Positions 11,230 through 39,700 of a stretch of DNA of 64,000 nucleotides are shown here, piece after piece; within the stretch, counting starts at the first letter, position 1; the number at the start of each line of letters is the position of its first letter. This DNA is from Heliocybe sulcata. Its lineage: Eukaryota; Basidiomycota; Agaricomycetes; Gloeophyllales; Gloeophyllaceae. The translations under genes were made by a program, and so were the position numbers. The notes beneath the pieces were generated by a model. It searched no databases and had not been told where the DNA came from. It saw nothing but the letters and a program-made list of their open reading frames with translations. The stretch spans positions 472,703 through 536,702 of the forward strand of contig ML213516.1 in the NCBI GenBank assembly GCA_004369045.1. Direction: 5' to 3'.

Positions 11230-12350
11230 GCCGATGAGTGACATCGAAGCTATTCTGGATTGACGTTTGACGATTTTCGAAGCACCTTGAGGCTTCCCTG
11301 TCAGCCACGTCCCGTGATCGACGCGTCTGCCGTTCCGCCGATGTATTTGAACTCCGCTGTCAGCCACCATGCCAGAGGGATATAAACCACCGCTGCTCTC
11401 CCTTCGCCCTCATCACTTCTCTTCTCTATTTCACTTCCACTTCACCTCGTCCTCCCGTTCCAGTCTTTTATCTCTCTGCGCACTCCAGAGGCCACAGGTG
11501 CCGGTATCCTGACCTCCAACTGCAGTGGTACGCGTCTCCCCGTTACTCTTCCTGTCTACTAAGTCCTGATTGCTTTCTTGTAGACGTCCGTCTTCCGTTA
11601 TGACATGGTAGCGAGCGGAGAGAAACGCTGATATCCAGGCAAGTGCAGTCCTCCTGAGCTATGATCTTGCGAAACCACCCCTGTGTGTACCCCTTCGGTT
11701 GCGTGGGCTAGCGTCCTGTTACGTCAAGAAGGACAGAAGACCTCGTGATTCATCGCATAAGCCGTTTCAGGAGCGAGGGTCGGGGGCAGGTGGTCAGAAT
11801 TCAGTGGCTGACACTTGCGTTATTTTAGGTTTTGCCCACGTCCTTGGACACAAGTAACAATATTTAGTACTTAAAGGCGAGTGCAGCTTCCACATTTGGT
11901 GCTGTTGATGAGATGTGGCAAGGGCTGGAGGGCAAAAGAGCCCGGTGGCTACCCCAGTCTTCTAGGAGGGTAATGGAGCCCGTTAGTTGATGGAGCTGGG
12001 CCAATGCTCGTACGGATCTAAACTGGGGTAAGACATGCCGAACTCATTAACGCCCTCTGCTGCCCGGGCTTGTTCTTGAGGGGAGACAGTCGAATACAGA
12101 CCCCACGGGCTGATCACCCGGTGTCGGGACGGAGAGTTCCACATTGTTGAATGCCGTACACGTCACATCCCATGAGCGGTGAACGAATGCGAAATGGATC
12201 GTTGGAAGCTGACACTAGCGTTTTTTCAGATCGCGTCGAGGTCAAGCGAGGCTCGAGTGTACGCGCTAGACAGAGGTGAGTCTCGCATTCTGGATCGTAC
12301 TATCAGGTACTGCGGCCATGTATCCGTATCTACATAAACACTTGGTCAAT
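11230..12350 (+). ncRNA. candidate spliced structured-intron RNA unit, copy A
   Basis: First of three copies of an apparent non-coding transcription unit. A TATAAA at 11381 follows a conserved block and precedes a pyrimidine-rich leader. Inferred introns are 11528-11583, 11639-11828 (190 bases, GC donor) and 11877-12239 (363 bases, GC donor). The exons between them are only about 48-55 bases and carry no conserved ORF. Introns 2 and 3 both begin with a GC(A/G)AGTGCAG sequence that is complementary to the GCTGACACT branch-point region near their 3' ends. Intron 3 also has a second stem (GAGATGTGGC with GTCACATCCC). This copy is the most diverged of the three, but the intron lengths are unchanged. 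The function is unknown; it could host snoRNA-like or other structured RNA. Confidence 0.5.
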
Positions 12351-12559
12351 CTTCGGCACAACGTAGAGAATCGTGCAGCTTCATATCGAGTGAGAATTGT
12401 AGTAATCTAGGCAAACGGAGGCTTTGGAACCAGACGTGGACGCTGTCTGCCACTGGTGGTGGGTAACAGGTATCGCAAGTCCAGCGGCAGCCTGTCCTTG
12501 CAACCTGGTCCCTGTCCCCACCTCTGCTGCGCATTCTCCAAGGTGACAAGCCTACCAGC

Positions 12560-13163
12560 ATGCAGATGCTGGCCTTCGTTTTCCTCCTCCTCCCGTTCAT
12601 TGTATACGCCCGATTGCAAGCACCATCGCAGCACCTCAACGTCAACGCGGTAGTGTCAGGGTCTCTGGAGGCGATCTTGCAGTCGAACACGTCCGAAACG
12701 GCCACTACAAATAGAACCATGGTATGCAGGCCATTTGGTCGGTGCGAGCGATGCCCAGAAGATGCGGTACGCTATGCTCGAACCGAGCCCCGAGCAGTAA
12801 TCGTCTGACCTCGACTTGGGACTGTGAAGCTGCGCGAACCCTTCTGCCAGCCTTTCGGTAACCGCCGCCGTCTCATGCACTGCAGCAATGCCACCCAGCC
12901 GCACTCCACCGCGTCCTCACCCCGGACATTTCCCCAACCAGCCCCCAATCCGCGATCCTCCTGACCGACAAGGAGAAACGCCCGCTTGGCAATCCTGCGG
13001 GCGAATCCCCGAGCAAGAGCGGGCCGACTTTTACGAGTTCGCGTTGTGTAATTTGGCGTTTGCCCTAGTTGCGCGTGGGATGGTGGTGCTGAGGTTGAGG
13101 CGGACGGAGGCGATGCTTGCGAGGAGGGTTGCCACGAGGATTGGGTTGGTTAGGGGTGGGTGA
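12560..13163 (+). pseudogene. frameshifted JTB-like gene (left arm)
   Basis: Left-arm copy of the JTB-like membrane protein gene that is intact at 37736-38341. Exon 1 (12560-12766) is open and encodes a signal-like N-terminus and the CRPFGRCERCPEDA cysteine block. Exon 2 from 12830 begins correctly (REPFCQPFGNRR, MHCSNAT) but meets a stop at 12962. The remaining conserved part (ETPAWQSCGRIPEQERADFYEFALCN, TM segment and Arg-rich tail) continues in another frame to 13163. If translated it would give a 113-residue protein without the transmembrane segment. A sequence error or an extra intron could mimic this, but the right-arm copy shows no such break. Confidence 0.65.
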
Positions 13164-13410
13164 GGGTGAGGTGCTGGTGGTCTTGGGTTAGTTGGCGGTG
13201 AGTGATTATCGATTCGGTGAGAGGATAGTGTGAATTGAATTGAGCCGGCGCTACTGGCGTGCGGCCGTAGTGAAATAGTCGGTAGTGATTCTGAGATCGA
13301 TGCGAAGGACCGTCCGATAGTTTGGGGATGCATGAAGGAGGCCCTGTAGGGTGAGATTCTGTCGTCGGCGCTCGCAGTTGCAGTCCATGTACCCTCTAGC
13401 CTCACCCCTT

Positions 13411-13934
13411 TCACCCAACCTTCACCTTTTTCCTCCTCCTCCTCTCCTCCTCCTCCTCCTTCTCCATCCCCGCTTTCACAGCCGCAGCATTTACGACCGG
13501 AATCGGGCGCTTGCTGAACACGATTTTACGTCGAACGATCGCAAGCATGTCGTACCTCCTCCCTTCCCCCTTCTCCTCATGCTCATCGTTGTGGGAAGCG
13601 GAATTTATTGTCGGCGCAGCGCGGCGGAGGACAGCGAGCGGTTTCTGGAGCGTGACGAGCTTGCCTTCGAGAAGGTGATGTCCGATGAGAAGGGTCGGCT
13701 TTGCATTGTTATCCTGCGTGCGGTCAGTTGCAAAGCGGACTTGCACTCGCATGAAGGAGAGCGCACCTCCGGAAATGTGAGCGTCCCGACGGCCTGCCCT
13801 GCCCTGTCGCCTTCGACTTCGAGCGAGCCCTGGAGCTCTATTAGGACTACTTCGGACGAGCCGAGTTTCGCGAGGGCTCGAGGGAGCGAAGGGGAAGAAG
13901 AGGAGGGGCGGGGCAGGGTTATTGGAATTATCAT
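13411..13934 (-). CDS. ctf8: Ctf8, alternative clamp-loader subunit (left-arm copy)
   Basis: Ctf8 pairs with Dcc1 and Ctf18 in the alternative RFC that loads or unloads PCNA for sister-chromatid cohesion. Two exons (13934-13767 and 13713-13411) join in phase to give 156 residues. Family hallmarks are visible: EVVLIELQGSLE near the N-terminus, KPTLLIGHHLLEGK after the splice junction, LQKPLAVL, and the late AIVRRKIVFSKRPIPV strand. An acidic-then-basic tail (EEEE, RRRRKKVK) arises from CCT/CTC-rich DNA. It converges on the broken JTB-like gene. An ACGCGT (MluI cell-cycle box) lies about 175 bases upstream at 14109, fitting S-phase expression. The right-arm copy is about equally intact, so the genome may have two functional ctf8 genes. 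Confidence 0.8.
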
Positions 13935-14094
13935 CGGACCGGGCGGGGTGGGATGGGAATTGACGTGTAGGAGTCGATGTGTACAAGTTGTGATTGCTGG
14001 CGGCGAGGATTATTGCCTACTACGCTCGGCTACGAAACGTTCTGATTCTGAGCTGGAGCGGAGAACGGGAGAAGGGCAGGAAAGGCAGGCAAGA

Positions 14095-14150
14095 CGCGGT
14101 GTGACGGTACGCGTTCATTAGCGCGTCACACTCCTAAACACACGCGATTG
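14095..14150. promoter_or_regulatory. palindromic ACGCGT element upstream of ctf8 (left arm)
   Basis: An imperfect inverted repeat centred on ACGCGT (14109-14114) with GTGAC arms. The same block occurs at 36356-36390 in the right arm and, less perfectly, at 23549-23580. ACGCGT is the known binding core of the MBF G1/S transcription factor in fungi. Its place upstream of ctf8 in both arms makes a cell-cycle element likely, but this is inferred. Confidence 0.5.
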
Positions 14151-14159
14151 GATGGTAGC

Positions 14160-14720
14160 TAGGATTCCGAATCAGTACTTGGTACGTATACAATGTAGCC
14201 CAGTAGGCGGTGTATCATCTGGGTGTGTGAAATTTCAGGTCGCCATGCTGAACAGTTTGGCCAGCTCTCACGTCTTGCGGATAGCCTGGACAAATTTCAG
14301 TACTGGCGAGCATGCGTACTGATGCACGTTCATGTAGACCTTCGCTGACACAACCGTACGTATCCTTGCGGTCCTGAGAATCGGCGGCGCCTGACGCATA
14401 TCCGGACACAACTATAGCATAAATCAGATTAAGGTGATATATCGTATAATGACATTTCCTTCTGATACAGACCTCGAGCGCTACGGGAAGCTCAAGATCT
14501 GGACTTGTCAGTATAAGGTCCAGGGGCCCTTATGGACGAGCCACCTGAGATAGTGCGGAGCTCTTACCGTATGATAGGCTAGGGTGTGCAACGTTCTGAC
14601 AAGCAAGGGCATATGCATGCCCTGCGAGGACAAGGTCGTTATTGTCGTTAGTGTTGCGTTATCGCAGTAGCCATTGAGCGCTTGAGGGAGAGGATTAATA
14701 CAAGGCATTAAGAGAAAATC
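14160..14720. repeat. flank of left inverted arm
   Basis: This stretch matches 35880-36350 in reverse orientation. It shares the GATGATACACCGCCTA block and a relic reading LLVRTLHTLAYHTVRAPHY in one arm and LVKTLHILVYHTATAPHY in the other. The relic protein is not recognised. Similarity fades near 14720, which I take as the inner end of the arm. Confidence 0.6.
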
Positions 14721-14994
14721 AGGACAGGCGCTCGCTTCCGAATGCCACTTACGCTAAGGCACTCCGACCTGGACAGAATGGAGGTAACGACAAGGTCCTA
14801 TCGTTGGTCATATTGATGTCCCCGTATCATCATGCTTTAATTGTCACGACTTTACGGTGAGTACAGGTTTCCTGTAATCGTGAATCGCCAGCATGATTAT
14901 GCTGTATATATCGACCGTACGTGCATATAGGGGAGAAGAAGTCGCAAAAGCAATCGAGACGGCTCGCCGGCGCCGACGATGTCGTTCTTGTCGC

Positions 14995-16683
14995 CTAGGC
15001 CATGGTGGTGGGGTAGAGGTGAGCATGGGGAAAGTGCTGCTTGATGCGGGGCCAGAGCCAAAACATGGGGGTGCGGTAGGTAACGTCCGAAGTCTCCGTC
15101 TTGCCAGCGCCGCCGGTGAGAAGACCACCGATACGACCGAGTCCATCGACGATGATGGACCCGGAGTCGCCGCGAGCTGAGAACGCGCCGGACTTGTTAT
15201 CATAGTTGTATATGGCCCACGCCTTGGACCCCTGACTGGACAAGTCGGCGCGGACGAATGAGAAGATTCCAGTTGCGCGGCCGATGGTGACGCCGGTAGC
15301 GTTGCCGTTCTTGATGACGAACAAGCAGGTCTCGTTGTCGTGATCGCGCAAGTCGGGATTGCACATGCGCTCTTCGGCGATGATGTCGCGGAGTCCAAGG
15401 AGACGATCGCTGGGGTATTTGAAGGTCGTCTGCTCGTCATCGCCAGGATACATCTTTACGGTGAACTCGTGGGGTGGGATCTCCGTGCCTTAGTGAGACC
15501 GTTAGACAAGATAACCTGGAGGAGAGAATCGCAACGTACCAAGATCGATGAAGTTGCCTTTAAAGGCATCTTTGAACTTGGAACCGTCGAGCTCGAACGC
15601 GCCCCAGTCTTCGGTAAAGCCTTCGGGACCGACGTTGAAGGTGAGGGCGGGGGAGGAGCGGATGTGGCCGATGATGCGCTGTGTGGGCGTGCCCCACTCT
15701 CTCTTAACCCTATCGTAGAATTTCTCGAGGTCCTCGATCGCCTTGTGCGTCTTTTGCAACAGGCGCTCAGTCTCCTGAAGCTCCTCCCCAGCCTCCTCAG
15801 CGGCGGCCTCGTTCCTAGCCTCATCCATGGCCTTCACCTTGGCCTTTAGCTTCGTGATCTGATCCTCATGAATCGGGAGCATAATACCGTGGCCACGGAT
15901 ACGCAACTTGATGTCGTCGAGAAGCTTTTCGAAGTGGCGAGTGCCGAGAAGTTGGACATTCTTGCGCGGCGCACCAGCGCCCGCGAGAACATTGGGGTCG
16001 TTGGTGTTCTCGCCTGCCTTGAAGAGAACGTGGTGACAAGTGAGACCCAACACTTTGTCGCTACTGCCACCCTCAGCGAAGTAGAGGCCCATGGTGCCCT
16101 GGGCGTCCTGCCTGTCAGGGGTAGCGACGAAGAGTCCGAGAGCGGTAGTAAGGGGGCCACGAACGTCCGCGGTGGCGTTGAGGTTGGAAACGGAGGGAAG
16201 AAGCGCTGGACCAACCGACGGCGTGTAGATGGACTCGCGGTACTCGACCTCGACATCGTCGACGTCGTTGGTCGCGAGGAGTTCAAGGATACCGTTGCTC
16301 GAGTCGAAGGCGCCATCGCTGTCGAGGGAATCGGGGACAACACCAACCCAGATAACGACAGGACCACTGACCTTCTCGTCTCCGTCTCCGTCGGTGACGA
16401 ATCGAACGACGTCGATGGAAGTCCAAGGAACGCTCTCGGCGATGAGCAGGTCCCGAACCTTGGGACCCACGTCGTTCCAGATGGCGTTGAGTTTATGGCC
16501 GAACACGCCACACGCCTGCTCGAGCCTGCGATACGCCTCCGGTCCCTTAGGCATGACCCAGGGGTACCGGTCGCCTCCCGTACGGTAGACCAGCTTCGGG
16601 GGAGACGGCGAGATGCCCGCATAATAAAACGTGGCCTCGGCCTTGGAGACTTCGTAGCGAGAGGAAGCTCTAGTGACTGACAT
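14995..16683 (-). CDS. trypsin-fold peptidase-like protein with coiled-coil insert
   Basis: A 545-residue protein from two exons (16683-15540 and 15488-14995, in phase). It shows the order of a chymotrypsin-fold active site: His in GLTCHHVLF, Asp in TEDWGAFELD, and Ser in ARGDSGSIIVD, followed by GRIGGLLTGG. Between His and Asp lies a charged helical insert rich in Lys, Glu and Ala (KAKVKAMDEARN, EEAGEELQETERLL) that looks like a coiled coil. There is no signal peptide, so it should be intracellular. Proteins of this shape are common and uncharacterised in agaricomycetes. I cannot name a substrate. The start (MSVTRASS) coincides with the edge of RNA unit B, so the upstream promoter region is shared and divergent; an earlier in-frame ATG at 16746 lies inside the repeated block. 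Confidence 0.8.
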
Positions 16684-17830
16684 CGAAGTTATCCTGGATT
16701 GACGTTTAACGAATTTCGAAGCATCTTGACGCTTCCTGTCAGCCACATCCCGTGATCGACGCGTCTTCCGCTCCGCCGATGCATTCAGACTCCGCTGTCA
16801 GCCACCGCGCCAGAGGGATATAAACCACCGCTACTCGCCCTTCGTCCTCATCACTCCTCTTCTCCCCTTCACTTCCACTTCACCTCGTCCTCCCGTTCCA
16901 GTCTCATATCTCTCTGCGCACTCTATAGGCCACAGGTGCCGGTATCCTGACCTCCAACTGCAGTGGTACGCGTCTTCCCCGATTATGCCTGCCCTCTCAG
17001 TCCTGACGATTTCTTGTAGACATGCATCCTTTGCTGTGGCATTCCAGACGTGGTAGCGGCGGACAGCAGCATTGATCCAGGCAAGTGCAGCCCTCTGAAC
17101 CTATGATCTTGCGAAACCACCCCTGTGTGTACCCCTTCGGTTGCGTGGGCTAGCGTCCTGTTACGTCAAAAAGGCCACAAGACCTCGTGATTCATCGCAT
17201 AAGCCGTTTCAGGAGCGAGGGTCGGGGGCAGGTGGTCAGAATTCAGTGACTGACACTTGCATTATTTTAGGTTTCGTGCCGGTCCTTGAACGCAAGTAAC
17301 ATTTAGTGCATAAAGGCGAGTGCAGCTTCCACATTCAGTGGTGGTCGTGGGATGTGGCAAGGGCTGAGCGGGCATGGGGGCCGGGCGGCTACCCCGGTTT
17401 CCCAGGAGGGGAGATCTGGTATCCCCTTGGTTGAATGGAGATGGTGGATATTAATGCTCGTACACATCCGAAACCTGGGGTAAGACTTCTCGGACTCATT
17501 CGCAGCCTCTGCCCAGGCTTGCGCATGAGGGGAGACAGTCGAATACTCCCCCTACACGACGGGCTGATCACCCTGTCCGGGCGGGAGTTCCCCATCGTAG
17601 GATGCTGTACACGCCACATCCCATGAGCAGTGAACGAATGCGAAACAGATTGTTGGAAGCTGACACTCGCTTTTTCAGGTTGCGTCGAGGTCAACCGAGG
17701 CTTGATTGTGCGCGCTGGACAGGTGAGTCCCGCAGTCTCAATCACTGGACGTGATAGCATGTACTGCGGTCCTGTATATCCGTATCTATATAAACACTTG
17801 GTCAATTTTCCGTAACATTCAAGGCAAACG
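16680..17830 (+). ncRNA. candidate spliced structured-intron RNA unit, copy B
   Basis: Stand-alone copy outside the inverted arms. TATAAA lies at 16819-16824, then a CT-rich leader. Inferred introns are 16966-17019, 17081-17270 (190 bases, GCAAGT donor) and 17316-17678 (363 bases, GCGAGT donor), with exons 17020-17080, 17271-17315 and 17679-17722. A GT donor follows at 17723, with no clear 3' partner. Intron 3 has a near-continuous 16-17 bp terminal stem with one bulged adenosine in CTGAC, the likely branch point. Inside are a perfect 10-bp stem (GGGATGTGGC with GCCACATCCC) and a GGGGAG/CTCCCC hairpin. Exons contain no conserved ORF. The unit lies head-to-head with the trypsin-fold gene. The function is unknown; a snoRNA or other ncRNA host gene is one reading. 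Confidence 0.55.
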
Positions 17831-21652: not shown

Positions 21653-21898
21653 GCGCTTCGAGACGACCATGTATCCATTAGATCTACTCATGACACGCTC
21701 CTTTGTATCGCTGCTTTCTTTGTATTAGGGCTGGGTCGTAACTTATCCTGGTGTATAAGTATGTAGGGCTTGCAATCAAGCTGGTGCTTGGCATGCGGGG
21801 TACGAAAGAAAACGAGGTTATCTCGCGGAGGGGGAGGTGATTAGTGAGGCCGAGGTGCGGATTGAGGCGTTGTGAGCGGGTCGGCGTAATTGTATGCG

Positions 21899-25159: not shown

Positions 25160-28100
25160 CTAGTGGCTGGGTAGGAAGCCTACATGCTTCCAATAGTCGA
25201 CCCATTGGGCAAAGTCGACCTGATGGAGCGGAGAAAGACCAGGAGCGCGCAGAGTCGCAGAAGTACCGAGAGCCCTGTCGATAGAAAGTACAGGCATCAT
25301 ACCGTTGCTCTCTACGATACCGCGGGCAGCATGGTCGGGAGGGCACGCGGAACGGTACATATTGATGATGCGAATCGCGGGCTCCAGACCCGGCGCGATT
25401 TTACGGATCCCCTGCGCCTTCCACTCGTGCTCCAGGCGAGCCAGCCAGTCCGAAAACGGAGCAGTGCCGACACCGAGCAGCTCAGCCATAGGCAGTGCCA
25501 TGCCATCCCATGCGATGGGCTTGGGATGGCGGAGATGGAGAACCTTGTCCTCGCAGTCCAACATGTCCAGCATGGCAGCGGCAGCCAAGTCCACCGGGAG
25601 CCAAGAAATGGACTACGACCGCCAATCTCAGCACATTTCACAGTCAAAGTGCAGAGTAATCACTCACATCGGTACCGGTGGGGAAACACTTTAGCGCAAG
25701 ACTGGCCGATACCATAGCAGGGAACCATTCCGATGGCTTCCACGCACCGTTCAGTCCACCGGTCAGCTGGTGGACACGCACAGTCGTGGCAGTGAATCCG
25801 GGGACCTTCTCCATCGCGATGTCGAGTAGCCTTTCCGAAACCCACTTCGACTCGGAATACCCCGACCCGAGCGATACCTTCGGATCTGGCACAGCTGACT
25901 CGGAGATAGGGGAGTACAGGTCGGGTATATATTCCAGTTCTATGCCGGAACATGTCAGTGCACTTGTGATCATAACCCTTCATGAACACCCACGCCTGAA
26001 CATGCCGCCAGAGCTGGTATAGAGTAGGCGTGCAGGCTTGCCGCTACGCACGGTGGCTGCCAGATCAATCAAAGCACGCAAACCGCCAACGTCGGGTTCG
26101 AATCTCTTCAGAGGGATGGCGAGGTTGATATTCCAGCCTGATCACGATGAGCACAATGATTAAGGACAGCCAGGTAAAGGTGCTCACCCATATGAACGAC
26201 GTGCGTGACACTGCCTCGAATCTGCCGGTTGCCCCGGTCAATGAGTGCACACGACGTGCTGAACGATTACTCACCCTCTCGTACACTTCTTCTGAAAGAC
26301 CCAGATGCGGCTCGGTGAGCACAGCCTCTAGCAACTCCAGCTTATCCGAGTTCAGTATGGCAGCGTTAATACCTCGTGCCTGTAGTGCCTCCTGTTGTCG
26401 AACAAAAGGTGACTGCGCAGAGTCCGATTTCCGCAGGAGCGCGTAGATCTTGTCGATATTGAGCGCGCAGAGCGACCGGGCAAGCATGTGGGCGCCGAGA
26501 CTGCCCAGAGTACCCGTGAGCACAATGACCCGGCTTGTAGAAGCGGACACAGTATTATCCAATGGAGGCTCGACGGCAGGGAATTCCGCGCTGAACTTTT
26601 CCACCATCGCTCGCAGCTCCCGAGCTTCGTCTTCAGGATGGCCGATTGTCGGTTCACCCGGGCTGGATTTAACTGAGCCAGTTTCTTCCACGCGAGCCTC
26701 CAATTGCTGGAGAGTGACATCGGCTAGAAGCTGGATCTGTGAGATGGCGACAATGGGGGCTAGCGCTGAAGACAAGGATGTTGCAGACAGAGAGTCGAGC
26801 CCGTACGCCGTAAGGGGGACGTCTGGAGCAAGATCATCGGGTGCCACCTCAAGGATCTTACAGACGATATCCTTCACGCTGGACGACCCCGGCGTATCCT
26901 CAGAGACAGTCACACTTGTCTCTGGAAGTAGATGCTCGAAGGTTCGGGACAAACCCATGTTAACGGCGACCTTTTGCCAATCGAAACTAGGAACGTATTG
27001 CCATATGGTCCCGCCACGAAGTTTCTGTATGCCATCTCCTAGGCATGCGCACAGTTCTACAAGAGGGGATTACTCAAAAGAATTTCAGCTAAGCCTAATA
27101 AAACCGCACCTGACGCAGTCATACCCCAATCGATGATATGCCGCAAACGACGTCTGTGCGCGTCGTCGATATGTCCTTTCAATAAGATTGCGCTATCAAT
27201 GATAGCCGGGCAGACCATGCAGAACGCGTTGCTGTACTTCTTTGTGAGTCCAGCCAGAGCAGAATTCGCACTACCATTATGTCAGCGTCGGTGCGGTATC
27301 ATATCGAGCATTGCCTTACCTTGCATAGTTGGTCTGGCCTGCGTTGCCGAACATAGCAGACACCGAGGAGACCGTGATCAGAAAATCGAGCGATTGAATG
27401 CTGACAGCCTGTTCAAGGTTCTGGAAGGCTCGGACCTTTGGCGGGAATGGCGCTTCAAATGTCTCCAGAGTTTGCGCCGTGAATGTACGATCAACTATGG
27501 CAGCGGAGAGGACCACGCATCCACCCAGTGGCTGCGTCAGACCTTGTACGACACGCTTAACATCCTCCAGCGAGATGGCGTCCGCTGCCACAGTCTCCAG
27601 GCGCAGGTCTGGAAGACTCTCCAGATGTCTGAGGATACGCTTCGACAAGACCGTACCCCTTTCAGTGATACTCCTACTGCCGGCACGGGAAGTCAAGACA
27701 ATGTTCCTAGCGCCTTGCTGCGCTGCGTTGTCAGTGAAAATCGCGCCGACATGATCCATGACTTCTCACCGAATACATCCAAAGCGCGATCTCCAAGCCG
27801 AGACTACCCATACCACCGATGAGCAGATACGATTTGAGTGGGCTCATAATGTCGAGCTGCAAGCGTACTTCCTCCGTAATAGCGGGTTGTACTAAGTGCA
27901 GTGGTTCCAAGAAGGCTGCCCTCGAGTCTATGTGGAACGCGGATGCGATACGTAGCGCATCGCCGATAGCCCAGGGGTCTCTCAGTAGTACGGCAGGAAT
28001 TCCCCGCTTGGCATCCGACCATTGGAACACTTTTCCTCTAGGAGCAACGTGGTCATCGAATATTTGAACATCTGCAGAGTCCTCGCAACCAGTCACAATG

Positions 28101-31100
28101 AAAGTAGGTCGGAGAACAGCGACAGCCTCGAGATCGGCAAGGGTGGGTTCAGCCGGACAAGAAGTGACATGCAATCCAAGAGCATTGTACATTGCGACTA
28201 CGTCGCGGCCAATGTCAGTACTTGCATGTGTCACAAATACAGAAGCTCCCTCGAGTCGTTCCGGGTGGGCGAACCGAGCAGCTCCGACTGATAGTACTGC
28301 GACAGCCTGGGCGAACACGGAGGGAAATGAAGAAGCAGCAACATCGACGATACTTCCGGAGTGGACGACAGCAACATTTGATATTTGACTGCTGACAATT
28401 CCCGCGACACATCGTGATTCCCCCGCAGGCTGTCCGACGAACGCCCACAGCTGCGAAGTTACTGGCGAGATACCAATGACATTGACGAAGACGTGGTTCT
28501 GCGGAACTGAAGGAGTGGAGATCTGCTTGATGTCCGCACCGTCATACACCCAAGGCAACTCCGGTCGGAACGCTGCACTTGATGCCGGAGGTTCGGCAAG
28601 TACAATCCTGGGCACGTGGACCGCACCGTCCTCTTGAACGTAGACTTCGTTCTCGCAGTCACTTTCCAGCAGGCGGTCCATAGCTATAGCTCTGTCTTTG
28701 CATCCCCAGGAAGCGGGGAAGACGACCAAGCGCACCGTCCAGAAGGTATACTCCTTCCCAAGAGACCTGGAGAAACCAAGAGCGGCATGCCCATCCATGC
28801 CAGCCGATGCAATGAACAAGAGCGTTAGAGGAGCACTGGAGTCCAGCTTCATGAGCCGCTGCTGGATGTTTATCTCCACACCTCGCGTATACTCAATTAT
28901 GATGATGTCTTTCTTGCCATGATCTGTGTAGCCATTGATCTCACCATTCTGGGTTGGAAGGTGCCCGTTCCCCACGACGTATCCGTTGCCCTCTTGAGCA
29001 TGTCCGTTCATCTCGATATTCCCGTTGCCCACTGCCCGTGGTAGGACAATGTCAGTTGCAATGTCGGCCACCTCGAAGCGCTTGTCCACCTTCTCCGGAA
29101 CATGACCATGACGAGCGACTTCCATGGCCTCGATGGTACACAGCCGAATGCCATCGGGACGTACGAGAGTGAAATCATAAGTAATGGCCTCTGCAGCTTG
29201 GTAAGATGCATGTTCAACACCCTTCTTTAGGCTTACCAGGGGTCCAAGCGGACATAATGCCATGCCCGAAGATGGTTTCTGGCAGTGGCTTCTCGAATAA
29301 CGCGTCGTGTACGGTGAGTGTCCTGATCTTAGCTGGCAAGTAGTATCGGGTACCATCCCAGCAATATGTCAGGATGGGGTGGACCATTGCATGCAAGGCG
29401 CCATCGAGAATTGCCGGATGCAGATTATACTCATTCAGGCTTGCAGTCCGTCAGTGTATAATAGCTACTTCAAGGCGGTCTCACTCACTCGGGTATATCT
29501 CCAAGATCACCACGGACCTCGACGAGTATCTCTTCTCTTCCCTGAGTATCCAAGCCACGATAGCAAGCCTTTACCCTTTGGTACATGGGTCCGTACTGAG
29601 CAAAACTGGCAAAGTCTTCGTAGAAATCTACCAAAGCAGGTCATTAGCATGATCCAGGATCGGTGAGGAGAAGAGCCACACTTTTCATCTCTATAGGAGC
29701 TAGGCGGTCCAAGATAGGTTCAAGCTGGACCGGACTCGGGCTTTCCGTAGCTCTATCCATTGAAAGGTAACCTCTGGCGTGAAGACGGTCGTACTAAACA
29801 AGAGCTTAGTGAATGTTATGGTCCGAGCGGGAGATAGATGTCACCTGCAAGGGCCATTTCCTTGCAATATCTATGGGAGCTGCACTGCGGACTGTCCACT
29901 TGCGACCCTCTAGCGAGATCTCCAGAGGCGTCGGCCGCTCGGATGACAAGGCGATGATGGAAATGAATTCGACATCGAATAGTGTTCGGGCACCAAATTC
30001 AAGAGCCTACATCAAGCTTTAGTCGATGAGATTACGAACACGAAGAGGACGACCGACCATCTCGAGGTAGCCGGCGGCAGGCATAATCGGTTCGCCCTTG
30101 ATAACGTGTTGTGCTAGAGCCGGGTGCGTCTTGACGTTCACCTGTATCTGAGGGTAGTTCAGTGGACCGTTACGACGTTGCCTGATCCTCGTAATCTCCC
30201 GGGACGCCCCAACGTATGGGACATCCCTCCGGGCGAAGGGATAGGGCACCTGAGGCAAATCCGTGTCGGTGTTACAGCCGGACAGACGATTGAAGTCAAC
30301 AGTGTGGTAGCCAGCAACAACAATTTTCCCAATAAATTCGACAAGCCCGTACAAGTCAGCAGCAGCCTGCCCCTTCTTGGGTCGTCGAAGCGGGCAGAGA
30401 ACGGGGATATCCTTCCCAACCATGGATGACAAATATCCACTCAGGACAGGATGAGGACCTAACTCGATGTAGACCGCGTTCGGGTACTTGCCGTGCAGTA
30501 CTTGCACCGCTTCCGCGAACCGCACGGGCCCCCGGGTGTTGTCCCAAAAGTACTGCGCGTCAAGGGCTTTAGTGAAGAAATCGCCGCTCTCCGTAGAGTA
30601 AATCTCGGCTGTTGGGTCTTCAATACGATGTCTAGCAAAGACCTCCCCTACAAGCTTCTGGTATTCGTCTTTACAGATATCCATCATAGCGGAGTGAACT
30701 GGGATCCGGGTGCGCAGACGCCTAGCAAAGATTCCCTTGGCACCCGCTGCCTGCACAGCGAGATCGATATGGGATGCTTTGCCAGATAGAGTGATAGCGT
30801 TCGGAGTGTTATAGCAGCCAATCTCGAGAGATCCAAACCCTGCATCTGAGATAACGGAAGCGATGATTTCTCTGGCTTGGTCTTCAGAGCAGTTGATTGC
30901 CGCCATGGTGCCATCAGCAGCCTCAAGTAAGGACATCGCCTTGCCTCTGGCAATGGCCAGCTCAAGAGCGAGCGCCTTGCTGCCGGAACCGGAGGCATAC
31001 AGAACTGCAGTCTCCCCAGCGGAATGTCCAATAACTGCATCTGGCTTGATGTTTAGGCTGGCGAGAGTATCGACGAGGGCCAGCTGCACCATTGTCAACG

Positions 31101-33375
31101 CAGGCAGGGTAAGTGCGATTGGCCAGATGTCTCCGAGATTGTCTTCCTGGGGCGTCTCGGAGAAGATGCCGGTGCTTTCAATGAGAGACTTTCCGACGGC
31201 CGTTTCATACACCTGGTCTAACTCAAGGATGCTCGATTGGAACACGGCGTTGGTCTTGAACAGCTCCCGACCCACTTCATATCAAGATTAGCAGAGTGAA
31301 ATTAGTATGGCACGTAAACAACGCACTGTCGAAGTACTGAGGACCTTGTCCGGAGAAGACAAAGACGAGTGGCACAGAAGATCTGTGAGAAAGAACAGGC
31401 TCCGAGAGCTGCGACATCTCATGGCCTTTGGCAGTAGCGAAGGATCGCCAGGGCATGGACCGGACACGGCGACCGTATAGGCGAGTAAGCTGGTGACCGA
31501 CATCGACCGAGTACGTCGCCCTGAGACTCTCGCCGATCTCCTTGGTGGATCGGGGAGAGAGACCGCCAACGATCAAAATCGCAGGAACCTCCTTCATATC
31601 AACACGCCAAAAGGTGCTCTCTTGCTGGGGCGGGGGCGGGGCGCCTTCGACCACGCAGTGGCCATTGGCTCCACCAATACCAGAACTCGTCATCGCGATC
31701 AGAGGCTGTCCACTAGGCGCGCGGCACTTCAATGGCTCCGCTTCAGTAGGTACGTGAATGCGATATTGATCCCACTTGATCTTCGGATTCCGCTCCTTCA
31801 AGTTGACGTTGGGCGGGATCATCCCTGTCTTCAATATCAACGACACTTTGCAGAGAGACGCTAAGAAAGATGTAATCTCGAGATGCCTTGTAGGTATCGT
31901 CAGCCTCGTCACCGTAATTAACGGAGACTTAGCTTACCCCATGTTTCCTTTGAGGCTGCCCATGATCAAGTCATCCTTTCGCGAAAATTCGGCACCTATC
32001 CAGTTAACCTCGGTCGGATCGCCTTGAGCGGTACCTATGATTTTTGCACTATGTCAGACTAGGAAGGAGTATCAAGGCATAATTCATGTGCCTGTAGTGT
32101 GCGACTCGATGAAGTCGACCTCTCGCGGTGATCGCCCCGCTTGCCGGAATGCACGCTGCATAGCTTCCTTTTGAGCCTCAGCGACGGGAGCGTGGATGGG
32201 AGCCAATTGACCCGAGGAGTTGACCCCAGTACCGAGTATCTATTCATAGCGATTAAAACACAGCCGAAATAAACAACACTCGAATATGCTTACGCTTCCA
32301 TAGATTTTGTCGGTGTCGCGCAATGCTGCATCTAGAGGCTTGAGAACTATCGCCACAACACCCTCACTGCGACTGAAGCTACACACATGAATATCTGGGT
32401 CAACAGGATGAACTCAAGAAGTGATACGAAAAAGTCTAACCCATTAGCCGATGCGTCAAAAGGTTTGCACTTCCCATCTGGAGCGAGTACGCCAGTAACT
32501 TGACTGTACGTAAGCCACTCCGTAAACCTGGCCGTGAAGTGGACACGCGGTCAAATACTTCGTCGATAATAACAGCCGCGTGGACATACCTGTGATTAAT
32601 CTGACTTCCTCCAACAACTGCAGCATCGCACTCGCCATTGAGTATCGCTTGCACAGCAAGGTGAGTGGCATAAAGACTGGAGCTGCACGCCGTGTCAAGG
32701 GGGACTGTGGGTCCTCGTAGATCGAGATGATACGAGACTCGATTAGCGATTGTCGACGGTGCATAAGCGAGCGACGCCGTGGCCTCTGCATCATCCTGGA
32801 TAGACAATACGCTCAATGATCTGCTCGATAAAAGCCTGGACATACGTGGCCAGAAATCGCGAATAAGTCATGCGCTACGCCTGACATATAACAGCCGACA
32901 TTCTTCCCTCTGTAATCAATACCGGAGTCGACAAGGCTCAGAAACGTCGTCTCAATGAGCTTGCGAGTGCTGACGGGCATAACGTGCGCATCCTTGCCAG
33001 TGATGCCGAACTCAAAGTAGTCGAAGAGGTTTATATCCTTGAGGAATGATCCCATCTCCGGAACGACACGACCCAACGCATTTCCCCGACGACTATGAGC
33101 AACCATTCAGCAAATGGGGAAAAGCTCTATATAAACACTTACTATTCTATGTTGAACCTCTCTGCAGGGATCTTCTCGTACGATTCACCCTTCTTGTACA
33201 GAAACTCGCAGAAAGATGCCAAGTCAAGGTTCCCTGGACGATTTGCTCCGGCTGGAAGTTCCACCGCTATTCCAACCTATCAAAGACATATTACATCGTA
33301 TTTCCCTTTCGCGTAGGCTTCAGGATGGAGACTCACAATTGCAACGGGAGAACGTTTGGTTTCTTGCATCGACAT
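25160..33375 (-). CDS. reducing type I polyketide synthase with terminal reductase
   Basis: A multidomain enzyme that builds a polyketide from malonyl units and probably releases it reductively. I derive 22 exons, all in phase, for 2375 residues: starts at 33375, 33276, 33092, 32795, 32527, 32378, 32239, 32034, 31886, 31274, 30006, 29793, 29627, 29439, 29196, 27717, 27270, 27056, 26221, 26137, 25962, 25612. KS: Cys177 in DTACSSS, His313 (ESHTTGT, unlike the usual EAHGTGT), His349. AT: Ser619 in GHSAGE. DH: His924 and Asp1090 (LDGALH). A linker with Asn-Gly repeats precedes an ER-like region whose nucleotide motif is not recognisable. KR: GGMGSLG, then SSVSAMFG with catalytic Tyr near 1752. 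ACP: Ser1896 in GLDSLS. A C-terminal SDR reductase has TGTLGSLG and GYSESKW. No methyltransferase is seen. Two introns need GC donors (at 32091 and 25995). The product is unknown, and no tailoring genes are adjacent. Confidence 0.9.
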
Positions 33376-34971
33376 ATTTATCCGGGTCGAAAGGTGAGGT
33401 CTGACTTGGATAGTTGGCTCCTGAAGGTTGAGCTTGATATTTATGCAAGTCCAACAAAAATGATGGTAGTCGCACCTGACATCGCCGAAGGAAGTAAAAT
33501 TGATGATCAGGGCATTTGAGATGGCCGTTCTGTATGCTCAGGCATGTAAATTGGCAATACGAGAAATGGCGGCCTTCCTAGAAACGCGCTAGAGGCAGTA
33601 ACTCAGAGTTAGCATTGCAGATAAGACAACAAGATGACAGTCCGGTCTGCGACTGCCGCCGACCAGGGTCTATGATGTGAGGTGCCTGCAGATCCAGCCA
33701 AAGCATGAGAGACATCCAGAAGTTCCGCGACATTCTCGTAAGCAAAGCCCCGAACGCGCGACTTGACATCCATCAAGCAGCAGTTTCATGTACCTCGAGC
33801 TAAGTATGCCGAGGACTTAACCTGCTAGTTTAGACTCTCTCGAGCAAGCATGAACTGCATGAAGAAGACGTGTGACCGTGACAACATCTCGTGGTGTTGC
33901 GTGGTGTGATTGGTCACGGCGAGCTAAGGACAGCATTGACGAGTAATCAAACAGCATTCTCCACGAGGATACTATCATCGACACGGTTCAGTTTGTCGCC
34001 CCTACTGCCGGATTCACCAAACCCTCACAGGCTGAATATTCCCTGGATTAGCTCGCTAAACCTGTCACAGGTCCATGCTGGTAAGTGCAGTTGTTTTGCA
34101 GGAGACTCTGTCGCGGCAAACAAGAGGGAAGCCCAGGTAGACCGCCCTTCCATGGCTATCATTCGCATTGATCTCTAATTGATCTCTAATTGTCTAAGGA
34201 ATATCCTCTGCTTTGCATAACCGAACCCAGCAGGTGCGATATCTCTCTTGCTGACCTCCGACGGGTCCGGGCACGTCACGCTTATAACCTCGTGTCACAG
34301 GCCGCTCTTCTACAGCGAGGTCTATCCTAAACTTCCCTCGCTCCCCGAATTCCCAGCCCTTGTAGGTTGATCAAATACAATGCACATATTCTACTCGAAT
34401 TGTCACGATAGCAGCACAAAATGTAGGGAAGTAAAACGTTATCAACTGGCGGCCACGGTCCGGTAGTAACAAGCACCGTGCCACAAAGCAAATCGAACCG
34501 CGCGTTCAATCATCCGCCGACGGTACCTATAGCATCAATGCATGATTGTGCATCGAAAGAAGTCGTGTAACATACTCACAGCCGGCTGCCAGTGCCGGGC
34601 ACCGACAAGACCTGCGAAAGTCGCTAATCAAAACGATTTTGATTCACAGGTCATCATCTCTCACCCAGTATCTATCATATCGTCCAGCAGCTGCGGTCGT
34701 GCAGACGCTCAAGTCTCTTCGCTAGCAGTCTAGTGCCGATTCTGCTTGCTCGGTTCAGTCATATGGCTACTTGCTATGCCGCTATATGCAAGTCATGAGG
34801 CAATCGCCCTCAACGGTCCGGACTACTATGAGATGAGCCATCTATCATAATAGATCGCAGTACTGCGCTGTTCTTGTATGCTAATCTCTCCATATGTATG
34901 GTCTCGACTCTAACTAATAATAACCCAGTCTCTCAGTGCAGACCACACTGCTTCGCCTTTCGAAAGGCTAA
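33376..34971. other. no gene recognised upstream of the PKS
   Basis: Contains the PKS promoter at its left end. Only short ORFs occur. There is a small tandem duplication of ATTGATCTCTA near 34168-34190. No transcription-factor, transporter or P450 gene that would extend a PKS cluster was found. Confidence 0.45.
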
Positions 34972-35098
34972 GGGCCTGTTCGGATTCCCAGAGAACCGGT
35001 AACTGCTGGCTTCGGTAACGCAGTTGTCGGAACCAGGCTCAGTAGCGATGCCAGCAATTAGCCAGCGCCCAGCAGTTACCGGGGGTCCGAATGGGCCC
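34972..35098. mobile_element. Tourist/PIF-Harbinger-like MITE
   Basis: A 127-bp element with terminal inverted repeats beginning GGGCCTGTTCGG on the left and GGGCCCATTCGG (reverse strand) on the right. Both are followed inward by a CCGGTAACTGCTGG block, so most of the element can fold on itself. TAA is present directly outside each end, fitting the 3-bp TWA target duplication of PIF/Harbinger elements. There is no coding capacity. Confidence 0.7.
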
Positions 35099-35879
35099 TA
35101 AGCATTGATGCATCTCTAGCTTGGGCCGACTCGGCTTAATTGCGGCACCACACTGGTTAGGTACGACTCTGGTACGTTGACCCAATTTTGTATACAGCGT
35201 TTTGCGTCTGAGTGCGGAGGATGTTTACTTCCGATCTTCCCGTCCAAGTCACGGCCTTCGTAACCTCCGGAATCAAGGTTCCATGCAGTGCGTTCATGTT
35301 TCTGGTCCCGTACTCTGAGACCAACCTTGATGGCAGGGCAAAGAGTTGCATCTCTGTTATCTATGATTTGTCGAGATTGAAGGCGCTACGGTAAGCCCAG
35401 GACAACGGTATCCAGTTGATATCCATGATCATGTCGGCATGCTTGAAGTCTCGAGCAGACGATTCCTATCCTCCTTGACAAGAGCTCTCATGTCAACGAG
35501 ACACCGTGGATGCGCCGCGGGTTCTGATAGACCATTGCAGCCTCTACTCACCTAGAATACCCGAGGTCCATCAGATTAATGTTGTTGGCGGGCGGACCTT
35601 GCGAATAATAGCCTCCCCATGGACTGTCGTATCGGCATTGCACCGATGATATTCTTGCAGTCATATGTAATGCCGGCCGGACATCGTGAGTGCAGTTGCA
35701 TGTTATCTTGCCGCCAGAGGTCTATTGCTCTCCACCGAAGCAACATTGACCTTTCCCCACAGCTTGACAGTGATTGCGACAAGGACGTATCTCGAGTAGC
35801 AAAGGGTCCCTTCCGAAGGAGAATCGCACCTCCCGCTAAGGTCCACGGTCTCCCGGCAGTCGCTCAAGCGCTCACCCAG
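35099..35879. other. no gene recognised
   Basis: Short ORFs without recognisable domains (for example 35157-35351 on the minus strand). No clear similarity to the left arm is seen until about 35880. Confidence 0.4.
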
Positions 35880-36350
35880 CGCCTGAATACGCCTTCGCTC
35901 GTCAAAACATTGCACATCCTGGTCTACCACACGGCAACAGCTCCGCACTATGTCCTCAAGTGGCTCGTCTGACAGGCCCAGATCCTAAGCTTTCCGTAGC
36001 CGAGGTCTCTATCAGAAGGAAAGGTCATTATACGATATATCACCTTGATCTGATTTACGCTATAGTTGTGGCCAAATATGCGTTAGGCGCCGCTGATTCT
36101 CAGAGCCGCAAGAATACACGGTTTGAGTACTCAGCGAAAGTCTACGTGAACGTGCATCCTAGTACGTATTCTCGTCAGGTTGTCCAGGTTGCACCTCATC
36201 GGAAGACTGAGAGCTGGCCACGCTCTCGAGCATGGCGACCTGCAAATTCACATACCCAGATGATACACCGCCTACTAGGCTATATTGTATACGTACCAAG
36301 TGACAAGTACTGATTCTAACGACCACCCAATCGCGTGTGTTTATAATTAG
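35880..36350. repeat. flank of right inverted arm
   Basis: Reverse-orientation counterpart of 14160-14720, including the relic reading LVKTLHILVYHTATAPHY (around 35900-35955) and the block near 36260-36330 matching 14130-14220. It marks the inner end of the right arm of the inverted duplication. Confidence 0.6.
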
Positions 36351-36355
36351 GAGCG

Positions 36356-36393
36356 TGACGCTAATGAACGCGTACCGTCACACCGCGTCTGCC
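36356..36393. promoter_or_regulatory. palindromic ACGCGT element upstream of ctf8 (right arm)
   Basis: Right-arm counterpart of the element at 14095-14150. ACGCGT lies at 36368-36373 within GTGACG...CGTCAC arms. A 443-bp mobile element is inserted immediately downstream, separating this site from ctf8 by about 600 bases instead of about 175 in the left arm. Confidence 0.5.
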
Positions 36394-36836
36394 CAGGACC
36401 CGGGTGACTGCTATATATGTCTGTCGGGTTTTTTGCATTTTTGAGGGCGAAAAATTGGCCGTATGTCTGTCGGAAATAGCATTTTTTAAGCTCCTGAGAG
36501 CTCTCATGAGGGAAATGTCTGTCGGATATAGCATTTTTGAGGGCCGCTAGACGCTAGACCAGGCCTGGCGGGCAGAATATTACCGGTTGGGCAGTCGTCT
36601 AGGTCCGCCTTCGTACCGGACGGCGGTAAGCGCTCTGATTTAGGTTGAAATCTGACCGAAGACACTGAAAAATCGCTTGAAAATGTCTTTCTACGGCCCG
36701 CCGCGGCGCCGAATAAGGCGTGGGAACGTGAAATGTCTGTCGGAAATAGCATGTTTGAGGCCAGTTTGGCCGCATTTTTGAGGCTGATTTGGGGCGATTT
36801 TCCCGACAGACATACATAGTAGTGACCCGGGTCCTG
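36394..36836. mobile_element. 443-bp TIR element with iterated subrepeats
   Basis: A non-coding DNA-transposon-like element with about 35-bp terminal inverted repeats. They start CAGGACCCGGGT and differ at only about three positions. It is flanked by TCTGCC on both sides, a likely 6-bp target duplication. Internally the motif ATGTCTGTCGG followed by a T-rich or ATAGCAT stretch is repeated about four times (near 36416, 36459, 36513 and 36732). The left arm lacks it, so it arrived after the duplication. The superfamily is uncertain. Confidence 0.75.
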
Positions 36837-36971
36837 TCTGCCCTCAGCTCCAGGTCAGAATCGAACGTTTCGTAGCCGTGCATACTAGGTGTCAATCCTC
36901 GCCGCCAGCAATCACAGCTTGTACACGTCGACTCGTACACGTCAATTCCCATCCCACCCCGCCCCGATCCC

Positions 36972-37492
36972 ATGATAATTCCAATAACCCTGCCCCGCTC
37001 CTCCTCTTCTGCCCCTTCGCTCCCCCCAGCCCTCGCGAAACTCGGCTCGTCCGAAGTAGTCCTATTAGAGCTCCAGGGCTCGCTCGAAGTCGAAGGTGAC
37101 AGGGCAGGGCAGGCCGTCGGGACGCTCACATTTCCGGAGGTGCGCTCTCCTTAAGCTTCATCCCGAGTGCAAGTCAAGTCCGCTGTGCGACTGACCTCAC
37201 GCAGGATAACAACGCAAAACCGACCCTTCTCATCGGACACCACCTCCTTGAAGGCAAGCTTGTCACGCTCCAAAAGCCGCTCGCCGTCCTCCACCGCGCC
37301 GTGCTGCGAACAAATCCCACTTCCCACAACGATGAGCATGGAGAAGGGATGAGGTACGACATGCTTGCAATCGTTCGGCGTAAAATCGTGTTCAGCAAGC
37401 GCCCGATGCCGGTCGTAAATGCTGCGGCTGTGAAGGCGGGGATGGAGAAGGGGGAGGAGGAGGGGAAGAGGAAAAAGGTGAAGGTTGGGTGA
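36972..37492 (+). CDS. ctf8: Ctf8, alternative clamp-loader subunit (right-arm copy)
   Basis: Second ctf8 copy, in opposite orientation to the left-arm gene. Two exons (36972-37139 and 37205-37492) join in phase to give 151 residues. The same motifs are present (EVVLLELQGSLE, KPTLLIGHHLLEGK, AIVRRKIVFSKRPMPV and a basic KRKKVKVG end). It differs by scattered substitutions and a shorter acidic run. Like Ctf8 elsewhere, it should act with Ctf18-Dcc1 at replication forks. Both copies retain the conserved strands, with no disabling change seen. The inserted TIR element upstream may have altered its promoter. Confidence 0.8.
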
Positions 37493-37735
37493 AGGGGTTG
37501 AGGCTAGAGGGTGCATGGACTCCGACTGCGAGCCCCAACAACAGAACATCATCCTATAAGGCCTCCTTCACGCGTCCCCAAACTATCGGACGGTCCTTCA
37601 CATTGATCTCATGAATCACTGACTATTTCCCCACGGCCGCATACCGGTAGAGTCCGTTCGAGTCAGGTTACACCATTCTCTCATGAATCGATAACACTCA
37701 CCTCCAAATAACCCAACCCCACCGGCACCTCAACC

Positions 37736-38341
37736 TCATCCAGCCCTAATTAACCCAATCCTCGCGGCAACCCTCCTCGCAAGCATCGCCTCCATCCGCC
37801 TCGTCCTCAGCACCACCATCCCCCCCGCAACTAGGGCAAACGCCAAATTACACAGCGCAAACTCGTAAAAGTCGGCCCGCTCTTGCTCAGGGATCCGCCC
37901 GCAGGATTGCCAGGCGGGCGTCTCTCCTTGCTCTTGTCGGTCAAGACGATTACGGGTTGGGGGCTGGCTGGGGAGATGAGGGGATGAGGACGCGGTGGAG
38001 TGCGGATGGGTGGCATTGCTACAGTGCATGAGACGGCGATTACCGAAAGGCTGGCAGAAGGGTTCGTGCAGCTTCACAATTCCAAGTCGAGGTCAGATGT
38101 TTGCTGTTCGAGGCTCGGTTCGTAGATAGCGTACCGCATCTTCCGGGCATGGCTCGCATAGACCAAATGGTCTGCATACCATGGTTCCATTTGCAGCAGC
38201 CGTTTCCGAGGTGTTCGACTGCAAGATCGCCTCCAGAGACCCTGACACTACCGCGTTGATATTAAGGTGTTGTGATGGTGCTTGTGGTTGGGCGTATACA
38301 ATGAAGGAGAGGAGGAGGAAAACGAACACTAGCACCTGCAT
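37736..38341 (-). CDS. JTB-like single-pass membrane protein (intact right-arm copy)
   Basis: A 180-residue protein from two exons (38341-38135 and 38071-37736, in phase). It has an N-terminal signal or anchor (LVFVFLLLSFIVYA) and an extracellular or lumenal cysteine-rich part (CRPFGLCEPCPEDA, then FCQPFGNRRLMHC). Next come ETPAWQSCGRI and a segment QERADFYEFALCN that leads into a hydrophobic helix, then a short Arg-rich cytosolic tail. This order of cysteine pairs, a Phe-Trp/Tyr-Glu approach to a TM helix and a basic tail resembles the JTB (jumping translocation breakpoint) family. The similarity is from memory of the family pattern and is moderate. It converges with ctf8; the left-arm copy is frameshifted. 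Confidence 0.62.
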
Positions 38342-38564
38342 GCTGGTAGACTCGTCGACTTGGAAGAATGCGCAGCAGAGGGAACAGGTTGCAAGGACAT
38401 AAGCTTGTCGCTGGACTCGCGCTGCTGTTGCAAGTCAGGCGACGTGGGACTTTCGTGAGCGTGTTCTGATATGTGGCCTTGTTTATACTTGTTACCCATA
38501 ACCAGTGGCAGACAGTGGTACGAAGCTGCAGGATTCTCTAGCAAAAGGATTTATACGTTCTGCC

Positions 38565-39700
38565 ACTAGTGTAAACATAAGGTGGACAAATATACAGATA
38601 TACATGGCCGCAGTACATGCTATTACATCCAGTGATGGAGACTGCGGGACTCACCTGTCCAGCGCGTACACTAAAGCCTCGGTTGACCTCGACGTAACCT
38701 GAAAAAGCGAGTGTCAGCTTCCAACAATCTGTTTCGCATTCGTTCAATGCTCATGGAATGTGGCGTGTAAAGCATCCTACGATGGGGAACTCCCGCCCGG
38801 ACAGGGTGATCAGCCCGTCGTGTGGGGGGAGTATTCGACTATCTCCCCTTATGCGCATGCCTGGGCAGAGGCTGCGAATGAGTCCGAGAAGTCTTACCCC
38901 AGGTTTCGGATGTGTACGGGCATTAATATCCACTATCTCCATTCAACCAAGGGGATACCAGATCTCCCCTCCTGGGAAACCGGGGTAGCCTCCCGGCCCC
39001 CATGCCCGCTCAGCCCTTGCCACATCCCATGTAAGCGCCGAATGTGGAAGCTGCACTCACCTTTACTAAATGTTACTTGCGTTCAAGGACCGGCATGAAA
39101 CCTGAAATAATGCAAGTGTCAGCCACTGAATTCTGACCACCTGCCCCCGACCCTCGCTCCTGAAACGGCTTATGCGATGAATCACGAGGTCTTGTGGCCT
39201 TCTTGACGCAACAGGACGCTAGCCCACGCAACCGAAGGGGTACACACAGGGGTGGTTTCGCAAGATCATAGTTCAGGAGGACTGCACTTGCCTGGATATC
39301 ACGTTGATCTCCGCTCGCTCCCAAGTCATAACGGAAGACGGATGTCTACAAGAAAGCGTCAAGACTGGTACTGAGAAGTCAGGCATAAGCGGGGTAGACG
39401 CGTACCACTGCAGTTGGTGGTCAGGTGGAGTGCGCAGAGAGGTAACTGGAACGGTAGGACGAGGTGAAGTGGAAGTGAAAGAGAGAAGAGGAGTGATGAG
39501 GACAAGAGGAGAGCGGCGGTGGTTTATATCCCTCTCGCATGGTGGCTGACAGCGGAGTTCGAATGCACCGGCGGAGCGGAAGACGCGTCGATCACGGGAT
39601 GTGGCTGACAGGGAAGCGTCAAGATGCTTCGAAAATCGTTGAACGTCAATCCAGGATAACTTCGATGTCACTCATCGGCGATTCGTTGCGCACGGACCAT
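38565..39700 (-). ncRNA. candidate spliced structured-intron RNA unit, copy C
   Basis: Third copy, mirror image of copy A in the right arm. TATAAA lies near 39530 on the minus strand. Inferred intron 2 is 39291-39102 (190 bases, GCAAGT donor) and intron 3 is 39060-38699 (362 bases). Here intron 3 starts with GTGAGT, a canonical donor, where copies A and B have GCGAGT. This substitution supports these being real introns. It is closer in sequence to copy B than to copy A, although A and C share the arm context. The function is unknown. Confidence 0.55.

Follow-up and report, generated by a model that had tools for sequence, protein, structure and literature searches.

A gene family of Heliocybe sulcata that appears to be selected for its introns

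Organization of the units

The window analyzed here is a stretch of 64,000 nucleotides (nt) of the basidiomycete Heliocybe sulcata (assembly GCA_004369045.1, contig ML213516.1, positions 472,703 to 536,702 of the forward strand). It carries three copies of an apparently non-coding unit, each composed of a promoter block, short exons and three predicted introns, of which the second and the third are the main subject of this work. A reading made earlier from the letters alone (the sequence-only reading) had placed the units at 11230-12350, 16680-17830 and 38565-39700, and both these positions and the TATA-bearing promoter block common to the three copies were confirmed, as was the length of intron 2, 190 nt in each of them. 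The lengths then given for intron 3 hold for unit 2 (363 nt) and unit 3 (362 nt), but in unit 1 this intron has 353 nt rather than 363. The features of the units, in window coordinates, are as follows.

11200..11208, plus strand: GGTCCGTGC element of unit 1, 181 nt upstream of the TATA box of this unit
11239..11388, plus strand: promoter block of unit 1 with TATAAACC at its end, from sequence comparison of copies
11528..11583, plus strand: putative intron 1 of unit 1, GT...AG, read by eye
11639..11828, plus strand: predicted intron 2 of unit 1, 190 nt, GC-AG
11877..12229, plus strand: predicted intron 3 of unit 1, 353 nt, GC-AG, one mismatch in the helix between 5' splice site and branch region
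16678..16826, plus strand: promoter block of unit 2 with TATAAACC at its end, from sequence comparison of copies
16966..17019, plus strand: putative intron 1 of unit 2, read by eye
17081..17270, plus strand: predicted intron 2 of unit 2, 190 nt, GC-AG
17316..17678, plus strand: predicted intron 3 of unit 2, 363 nt, GC-AG, fold z -5.17
38699..39060, minus strand: predicted intron 3 of unit 3, 362 nt, GT-AG
39102..39291, minus strand: predicted intron 2 of unit 3, 190 nt, GC-AG
39347..39405, minus strand: putative intron 1 of unit 3, read by eye
39521..39670, minus strand: promoter block of unit 3 with TATAAACC at its end, from sequence comparison of copies
39690..39698, minus strand: GGTCCGTGC element of unit 3, 170 nt upstream of the TATA box of this unit

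The word GGTCCGTGC was not found in the stretch searched upstream of unit 2.

The family is larger than the three copies first described. These three do lie in the window (C14 copies, after the handle of the window contig), but intron 2 is also present in four further units on another contig, C4, which gives seven such units in the genome of 31.6 Mb (51 contigs), match counts of this search being lower bounds. The C4 units are all found at about 1.14-1.21 Mb, one of them interrupted by a run of N, and no match to intron 2 was obtained elsewhere in the genome at E <= 10. On contig C16 two matches are limited to the promoter and break off where a contig starts or a run of N intervenes, and this region may therefore conceal further units. 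A DNA search with intron 3 (E <= 10) matched the three C14 units and nothing further; a fourth, diverged intron 3 of 387 nt was recognized in the C4 unit L011 by pattern search combined with direct reading. Viral and prokaryote contigs scanned for exact occurrences of 25- and 22-base stretches of intron 2 gave no match. Units 1 and 3 are parts of one inverted duplication, which also carries a neighboring gene.

Conservation of intron 2

The extent of conservation is markedly different inside and outside intron 2. Among the 12 pairs formed by a C14 and a C4 copy, Kimura two-parameter (K2P) distances of intron 2 ranged from 0.033 to 0.072, compared with 0.571-0.747 for the stretch between the TATA box and intron 2, which contains the leader exons, and the 60 nt past the 3' splice site of intron 2 are saturated between C14 and C4. 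Edges of the conserved block coincide with the predicted splice sites (marked by a slash): it starts at AG/GCAAGTGCAG and stops at TTAG/GTT or TCAG/GTT. The GC dinucleotide at the 5' splice site is kept in all seven copies, and 171 of the 191 alignment columns are invariant in the six complete ones. The longest invariant runs, of 49 and 42 columns, exceed what would be expected with changes placed at random (P = 0.038 for the longest run and 0.0025 for the sum of both).

Such conservation could reflect a protein-coding exon, with intron 2 lying inside a small open reading frame (ORF). Frame +1 of intron 2 is open in most copies, and the automatic gene models P0121 and P0122 annotate this ORF as a protein, spanning intron 2, in two of them. 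When a translation taken from the alignment of four copies was compared with a protein collection, two matches were found, both of them Heliocybe sulcata gene models and both on one 1.84-Mb sequence. Compared by eye, the letters of these models match two of the C4 units at the junctions between exon and intron 2; a search of this kind would miss non-coding relatives in other fungi. Nevertheless, unit 2 has a stop in this frame, the C14 and C4 copies differ in it by a one-base indel, and no start codon common to the copies was found by eye. Nine of its ten variable codons differ non-synonymously and one synonymously, with the neutral expectation near 69% non-synonymous, although ten codons are too few for significance. 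A conserved frame with synonymous bias was thus found neither in intron 2, where it was tested, nor in the other exons, which were read by eye. As judged from these comparisons, intron 2 shows no sign of coding constraint, the ORF is not supported as coding, and the protein-coding explanation seems extremely improbable.

Intron 2 was predicted to fold into one long rod or hairpin, though the evidence for this modeled structure is weak. It includes one compensated pair, C40-G148 changed to U40-A148 by two fixed differences between C14 and C4 (positions 17120 and 17228 in unit 2, where the pair is C-G; the C4 copies have U-A). No convincing pairing of U1, U2 or U4 with the core of intron 2 emerged, 192, 16 and 193 of 200 shuffles, respectively, being equally good.

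Fold of intron 3

Intron 3 changes rapidly in sequence while its predicted fold is kept, and the evidence for this modeled fold is strong. Single-sequence folding gave z-scores of -5.17 (unit 2), -3.03 and -2.26 in three of the four copies (unit 3 excluded). The consensus of the four copies consists of 91 pairs, with 93.6% of the cells paired, and its RNAalifold energy corresponds to z of -7.9 relative to column shuffles, none of 100 being as good. Both sides had changed in 19 of the 91 pairs, as compared with 7.5 +/- 1.9 in shuffles (0 of 500), a count obtained with four sequences from one genome, with the structure drawn from the same alignment and kinship ignored. When the partners were slid, at most 4 pairs changed on both sides.

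The proposal that the gene is selected for its introns gains support from these results, because the predicted splice sites delimit the conservation of intron 2 and compensatory change in intron 3 is strong. To the extent that sequence comparison can tell, selection has acted on the introns and not on the exons.

Pairing of the 5' splice site with the branch region

In both introns the first ten bases, GYRAGTGCAG, can form a helix with CTG[A]CACTYGC in which the presumed branch A (in brackets) is bulged. This pairing, suggested already in the sequence-only reading, occurs in all ten complete introns (six copies of intron 2 and four of intron 3). The seventh intron 2, whose complete sequence is interrupted by N, shows the pairing at its ends as well. 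In intron 3 of unit 1 the branch region reads CACTAGC, which introduces one G-A mismatch into the helix. Among the four copies of intron 3 the terminal helix itself covaries at its third pair: two copies have G-C there, the C4 copy has A-U, and in unit 1 the pair is lost. Terminal helices extend up to 12 and 15 pairs. According to a rough simulation, in which the consensus and base composition were assumed, a full ten-pair helix would arise by chance with a frequency of about 5e-5 per consensus-like intron.

Introns of the U2-type spliceosomal class are recognized by consensus sequences at the 5' splice site, the branch site and the 3' splice site. All three are present in the sequence of the introns considered here, as AG/GYRAGT, CTGAC, and YAG located 15-17 nt from the presumed branch A, and these signals look like those of ordinary fungal introns. 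They bear on the question of whether the two elements are introns at all. Long terminal helices and the very stable fold of intron 3 would also be consistent with two structured RNAs cut from a primary transcript by an enzyme of the RNase III/Dicer type, for example as a source of small RNAs. Such processing, however, is at odds with the preservation of splice signals lying outside the helix, with an AG preceding it in the copies aligned and TAG or CAG at the above distance from the presumed branch A. Moreover, the sole change at the second base of intron 3, C to T, still gives a valid 5' splice dinucleotide. We therefore regard excision by such an enzyme as quite unlikely.

In computed energy the helix far outweighs the pairings with which it would compete. 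Calculated for unmodified RNA with proteins ignored, its energy is between -17.3 and -26.4 kcal/mol (five introns), in comparison to -6.5 to -10.1 kcal/mol for the 5' splice site with U1 of this genome and -7.3 to -10.7 kcal/mol for the branch region with U2 (three duplexes computed in each case). It follows that either U1 binds first, or the helix has to be opened or splicing is gated. The last possibility leads to a splicing switch: by masking both the 5' splice site and the branch site, the helix would keep the transcript unspliced until opened by a protein, by temperature or by a metabolite, and the intron-retaining form, or the choice between forms, would be functional. Retention of the GC dinucleotide in all seven copies of intron 2 would fit this mechanism, as does the strength of the helix. 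On the other hand, exons barely align between C14 and C4, so a switch acting on exon joining would control nothing conserved, and the near-invariance of intron 2 covers most of its length, far past the helix. We consider the switch to be unlikely.

A further property of the intron start, CAAGUGCAG, is its resemblance to the stretch CAAGUGUAG of U2 in this genome, the branch-recognition region. One might imagine on this basis a new class of intron-derived RNA, whose first ten bases imitate U2 and hold its own branch site, so that it would be a self-gated substrate, stable after excision, and could act on the splicing machinery. To a large degree the likeness to U2 is a consequence of the 5' splice consensus. 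The C14 copies of intron 3 are predicted to form two fewer pairs with U2, while their internal helix is intact in units 2 and 3 and disturbed by a single mismatch in unit 1; hence internal pairing, not U2 mimicry, looks like the feature that is kept. We find the existence of such a class very doubtful.

Comparison with known introns and intron-derived RNAs

The suggestion that the units are hosts of small nucleolar RNAs (snoRNAs) was not supported in its ordinary sense, there being neither an Rfam match nor a shared C box. No matches at the Rfam gathering threshold were found in the window, and at E <= 10 there were matches at chance level alone in the stretches compared, which included both introns of unit 2 and the loci L003 and L010-L012. 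A C/D box snoRNA has the C box, RUGAUGA, near its 5' end, the D box, CUGA, near its 3' end, and a terminal stem. Within one mismatch, the C box occurs in 2 of the 10 introns and is not common to the copies, and CUGA sits at the branch site. The H/ACA class is characterized by two hairpins, an H box in the hinge, and ACA three bases from the 3' end; the introns gave no Rfam match, the weakly supported fold of intron 2 has one hairpin, and the last ACA falls in the branch region. The telomerase template words CCCTAA, CTAACC and TAACCC are absent from all 10 introns. The units resemble snoRNA hosts in having an apparently non-coding host, poorly conserved exons and conserved intron content; they differ from them in lacking shared C/D or H/ACA features, and in conservation that reaches the splice sites themselves.

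The statement that no described family is matched is too strong as regards the shape of the introns, since other introns with paired ends are known. In a published account, fungal introner-like elements and the symmetrical stwintrons of Hypoxylaceae are described as spliceosomal introns with paired ends. The symmetrical stwintrons of ascomycetes carry inverted repeats at their termini, and in the hairpin predicted for them the branch A and the terminal bases are often unpaired (PMC8469720). This similarity raises the possibility that the introns are mobile or homogenized, and that the likeness of intron 2 between C14 and C4 results from recent reverse splicing or conversion and not from selection. 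Paired ends were indeed found, introns 2 and 3 have the same ends, and the conservation is bounded by the intron, all of which such an origin would account for. However, introner-like elements and stwintrons spread to new positions in many genes, and the introns described here belong to one apparently non-coding family, intron 2 occurring in seven units and intron 3 in four, with no further copy of either at E <= 10. A search for the paired-end pattern in two length ranges returned 5 matches outside the units versus 8 in the control, and 1 versus 5. Furthermore, changes in intron 2 are clustered and its two fixed differences compensate each other, and copying leaves unexplained the preservation of the intron 3 fold during sequence divergence. 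Mobility or homogenization thus appears very unlikely.

Intermediate and nonconventional introns of euglenids, as described in PMC4770533, contain a conserved CAG/CTG pairing near their ends and a structure joining these ends, and include one GC-AG case. There, positions +4 to +6 pair with -8 to -6 and the removal mechanism is given as unknown; in the units, by contrast, CAG occupies +8 to +10 and pairs with CTG of the presumed branch site. Structured excised linear introns are represented by FLEXIs in human cells (PMC11460701) and by introns stable in stationary phase in yeast (PMC6631633). For both, persistence of the excised intron was demonstrated, whereas introns of the units are known from sequence; another difference is that the host exons of the units are hardly conserved and look non-coding. 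No published description of this unit was found in a limited literature search.

Promoters and neighboring genes

When the word GGTCCGTGC was required to be followed by TATAWA within 3-33 nt, 12 distinct places in the genome were recovered (13 matches; 4 for the reversed control), with the word located 19-25 nt from the TATA box (L045, L047-L057). According to Rfam, four of them are U2 genes and one is a U4 gene; a U1 gene was recognized by a sub-threshold Rfam match (E 1.1e-5), and two more are U1-like on the basis of the 5' end ATACTTACCT. At this distance from TATA, GGTCCGTGC is a probable promoter element of small nuclear RNA (snRNA) genes of this fungus. Four places with this type of promoter, L047, L048, L053 and L055, gave no Rfam match on the transcribed strand at E <= 5 and may be either unrecognized small RNA genes or coding genes; L047, L048 and L055 have the bases just before the element in common.

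The longer word GGTCCGTGCGC occurs 45 times, as compared with 18 occurrences of the reversed control. Among the 29 places newly inspected, one is U1-like (L063, with the promoter word present and a variant TATA), five precede members of a gene family and 23 were left without identification. The five-copy family (L077, L079, L080, L084 and L085) looks protein-coding, with a start MPSVKETL, with variants, seen by eye in three copies; on C20, and likewise on C30, two copies point in opposite directions. Its promoters contain the GGTCCGTGCGC word and the GGATATAAACC box, as do those of the units.

GGTCCGTGC is present in eight of nine unit promoters (C16 included), where 162-193 nt separate it from the TATA box downstream. 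This distance, compared with 19-25 nt in the snRNA-type genes, weakened the idea that the units have a promoter of the snRNA type, as did the presence of the word before the five-copy family, which resembles coding genes. The occurrence of GGTCCGTGC at both the units and the snRNA genes hints at a shared activator and nothing more.

The neighboring gene, whose copies at 12537-13948 and 36958-38364 are inverted and were duplicated together with units 1 and 3, has a beginning that resembles a signal peptide by eye. No homologue of its ORF at 13336-14118, beside unit 1, was found at E <= 0.001, and no copy of the gene at unit 2 was present among the repeats listed. A Pfam search with 20 ORFs near the units gave no clue to the latter. 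Between units 2 and 3, on the minus strand (26068-31281), there are pieces of a polyketide synthase: an acyl transferase, the start of a dehydratase (below the cut-off), a phosphopantetheine site and an NAD-binding reductase-like domain. Irregular C/T-rich repeats with CCCTNTAACCCGCTCTC-like units were noticed by eye downstream of three of the four C4 units (L009, L010 and L011).

Discussion

The explanation that we put first, as an evenly poised judgement, is that the units form a family of non-coding host genes whose products are the excised introns, with a helix closing their ends. Transcription, splicing, stability and function of the units are what we infer from the features described above, and the course of events would be the following. 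RNA polymerase II would produce a short multi-exon RNA from the conserved TATA promoter, and the spliceosome, to judge from the conserved splice signals, would excise intron 2 (GC-AG, about 190 nt) and, where present, intron 3 (GY-AG, 353-387 nt). For this to occur, U1 would have to occupy the 5' splice site ahead of transcription of the branch region; otherwise the helix would have to be opened. Geometry suggests that in the lariat the first bases could not fully pair as long as they are joined to the bulged A, and that in the debranched intron the helix would close the end. The resulting double-stranded end with a short 3' tail should slow decay. Both introns may then function as RNAs, most likely protein-bound, with intron 2 relying on its near-invariant sequence and intron 3 on its fold.

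Several observations weigh against this host-gene interpretation. The folding energy of intron 2 is ordinary (z of -0.72 and -0.97), 7 of 100 column shuffles were as good as its alignment fold in RNAalifold, and a single compensated pair is thin evidence. Three consensus pairs of intron 2 are broken in unit 2, where, by eye, the helix could re-form with a one-base shift. The narrow basis of the covariation count in intron 3 counts in the same direction, and so does the absence of a recognizable intron 3 from the other three C4 units with the pattern used, which a more diverged copy could escape. Finally, the promoter is conserved too, though less so than intron 2 (K2P of 0.139-0.183 for the same 12 copy pairs).

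Few genes are known to us whose evident purpose is their introns, and these are mostly snoRNA hosts. A gene family with one intron nearly frozen in sequence, the next kept in its fold, and the 5' splice site and branch site of both locked in one helix would offer a natural setting in which to study the splicing of masked introns and to ask whether the excised introns act as RNAs.

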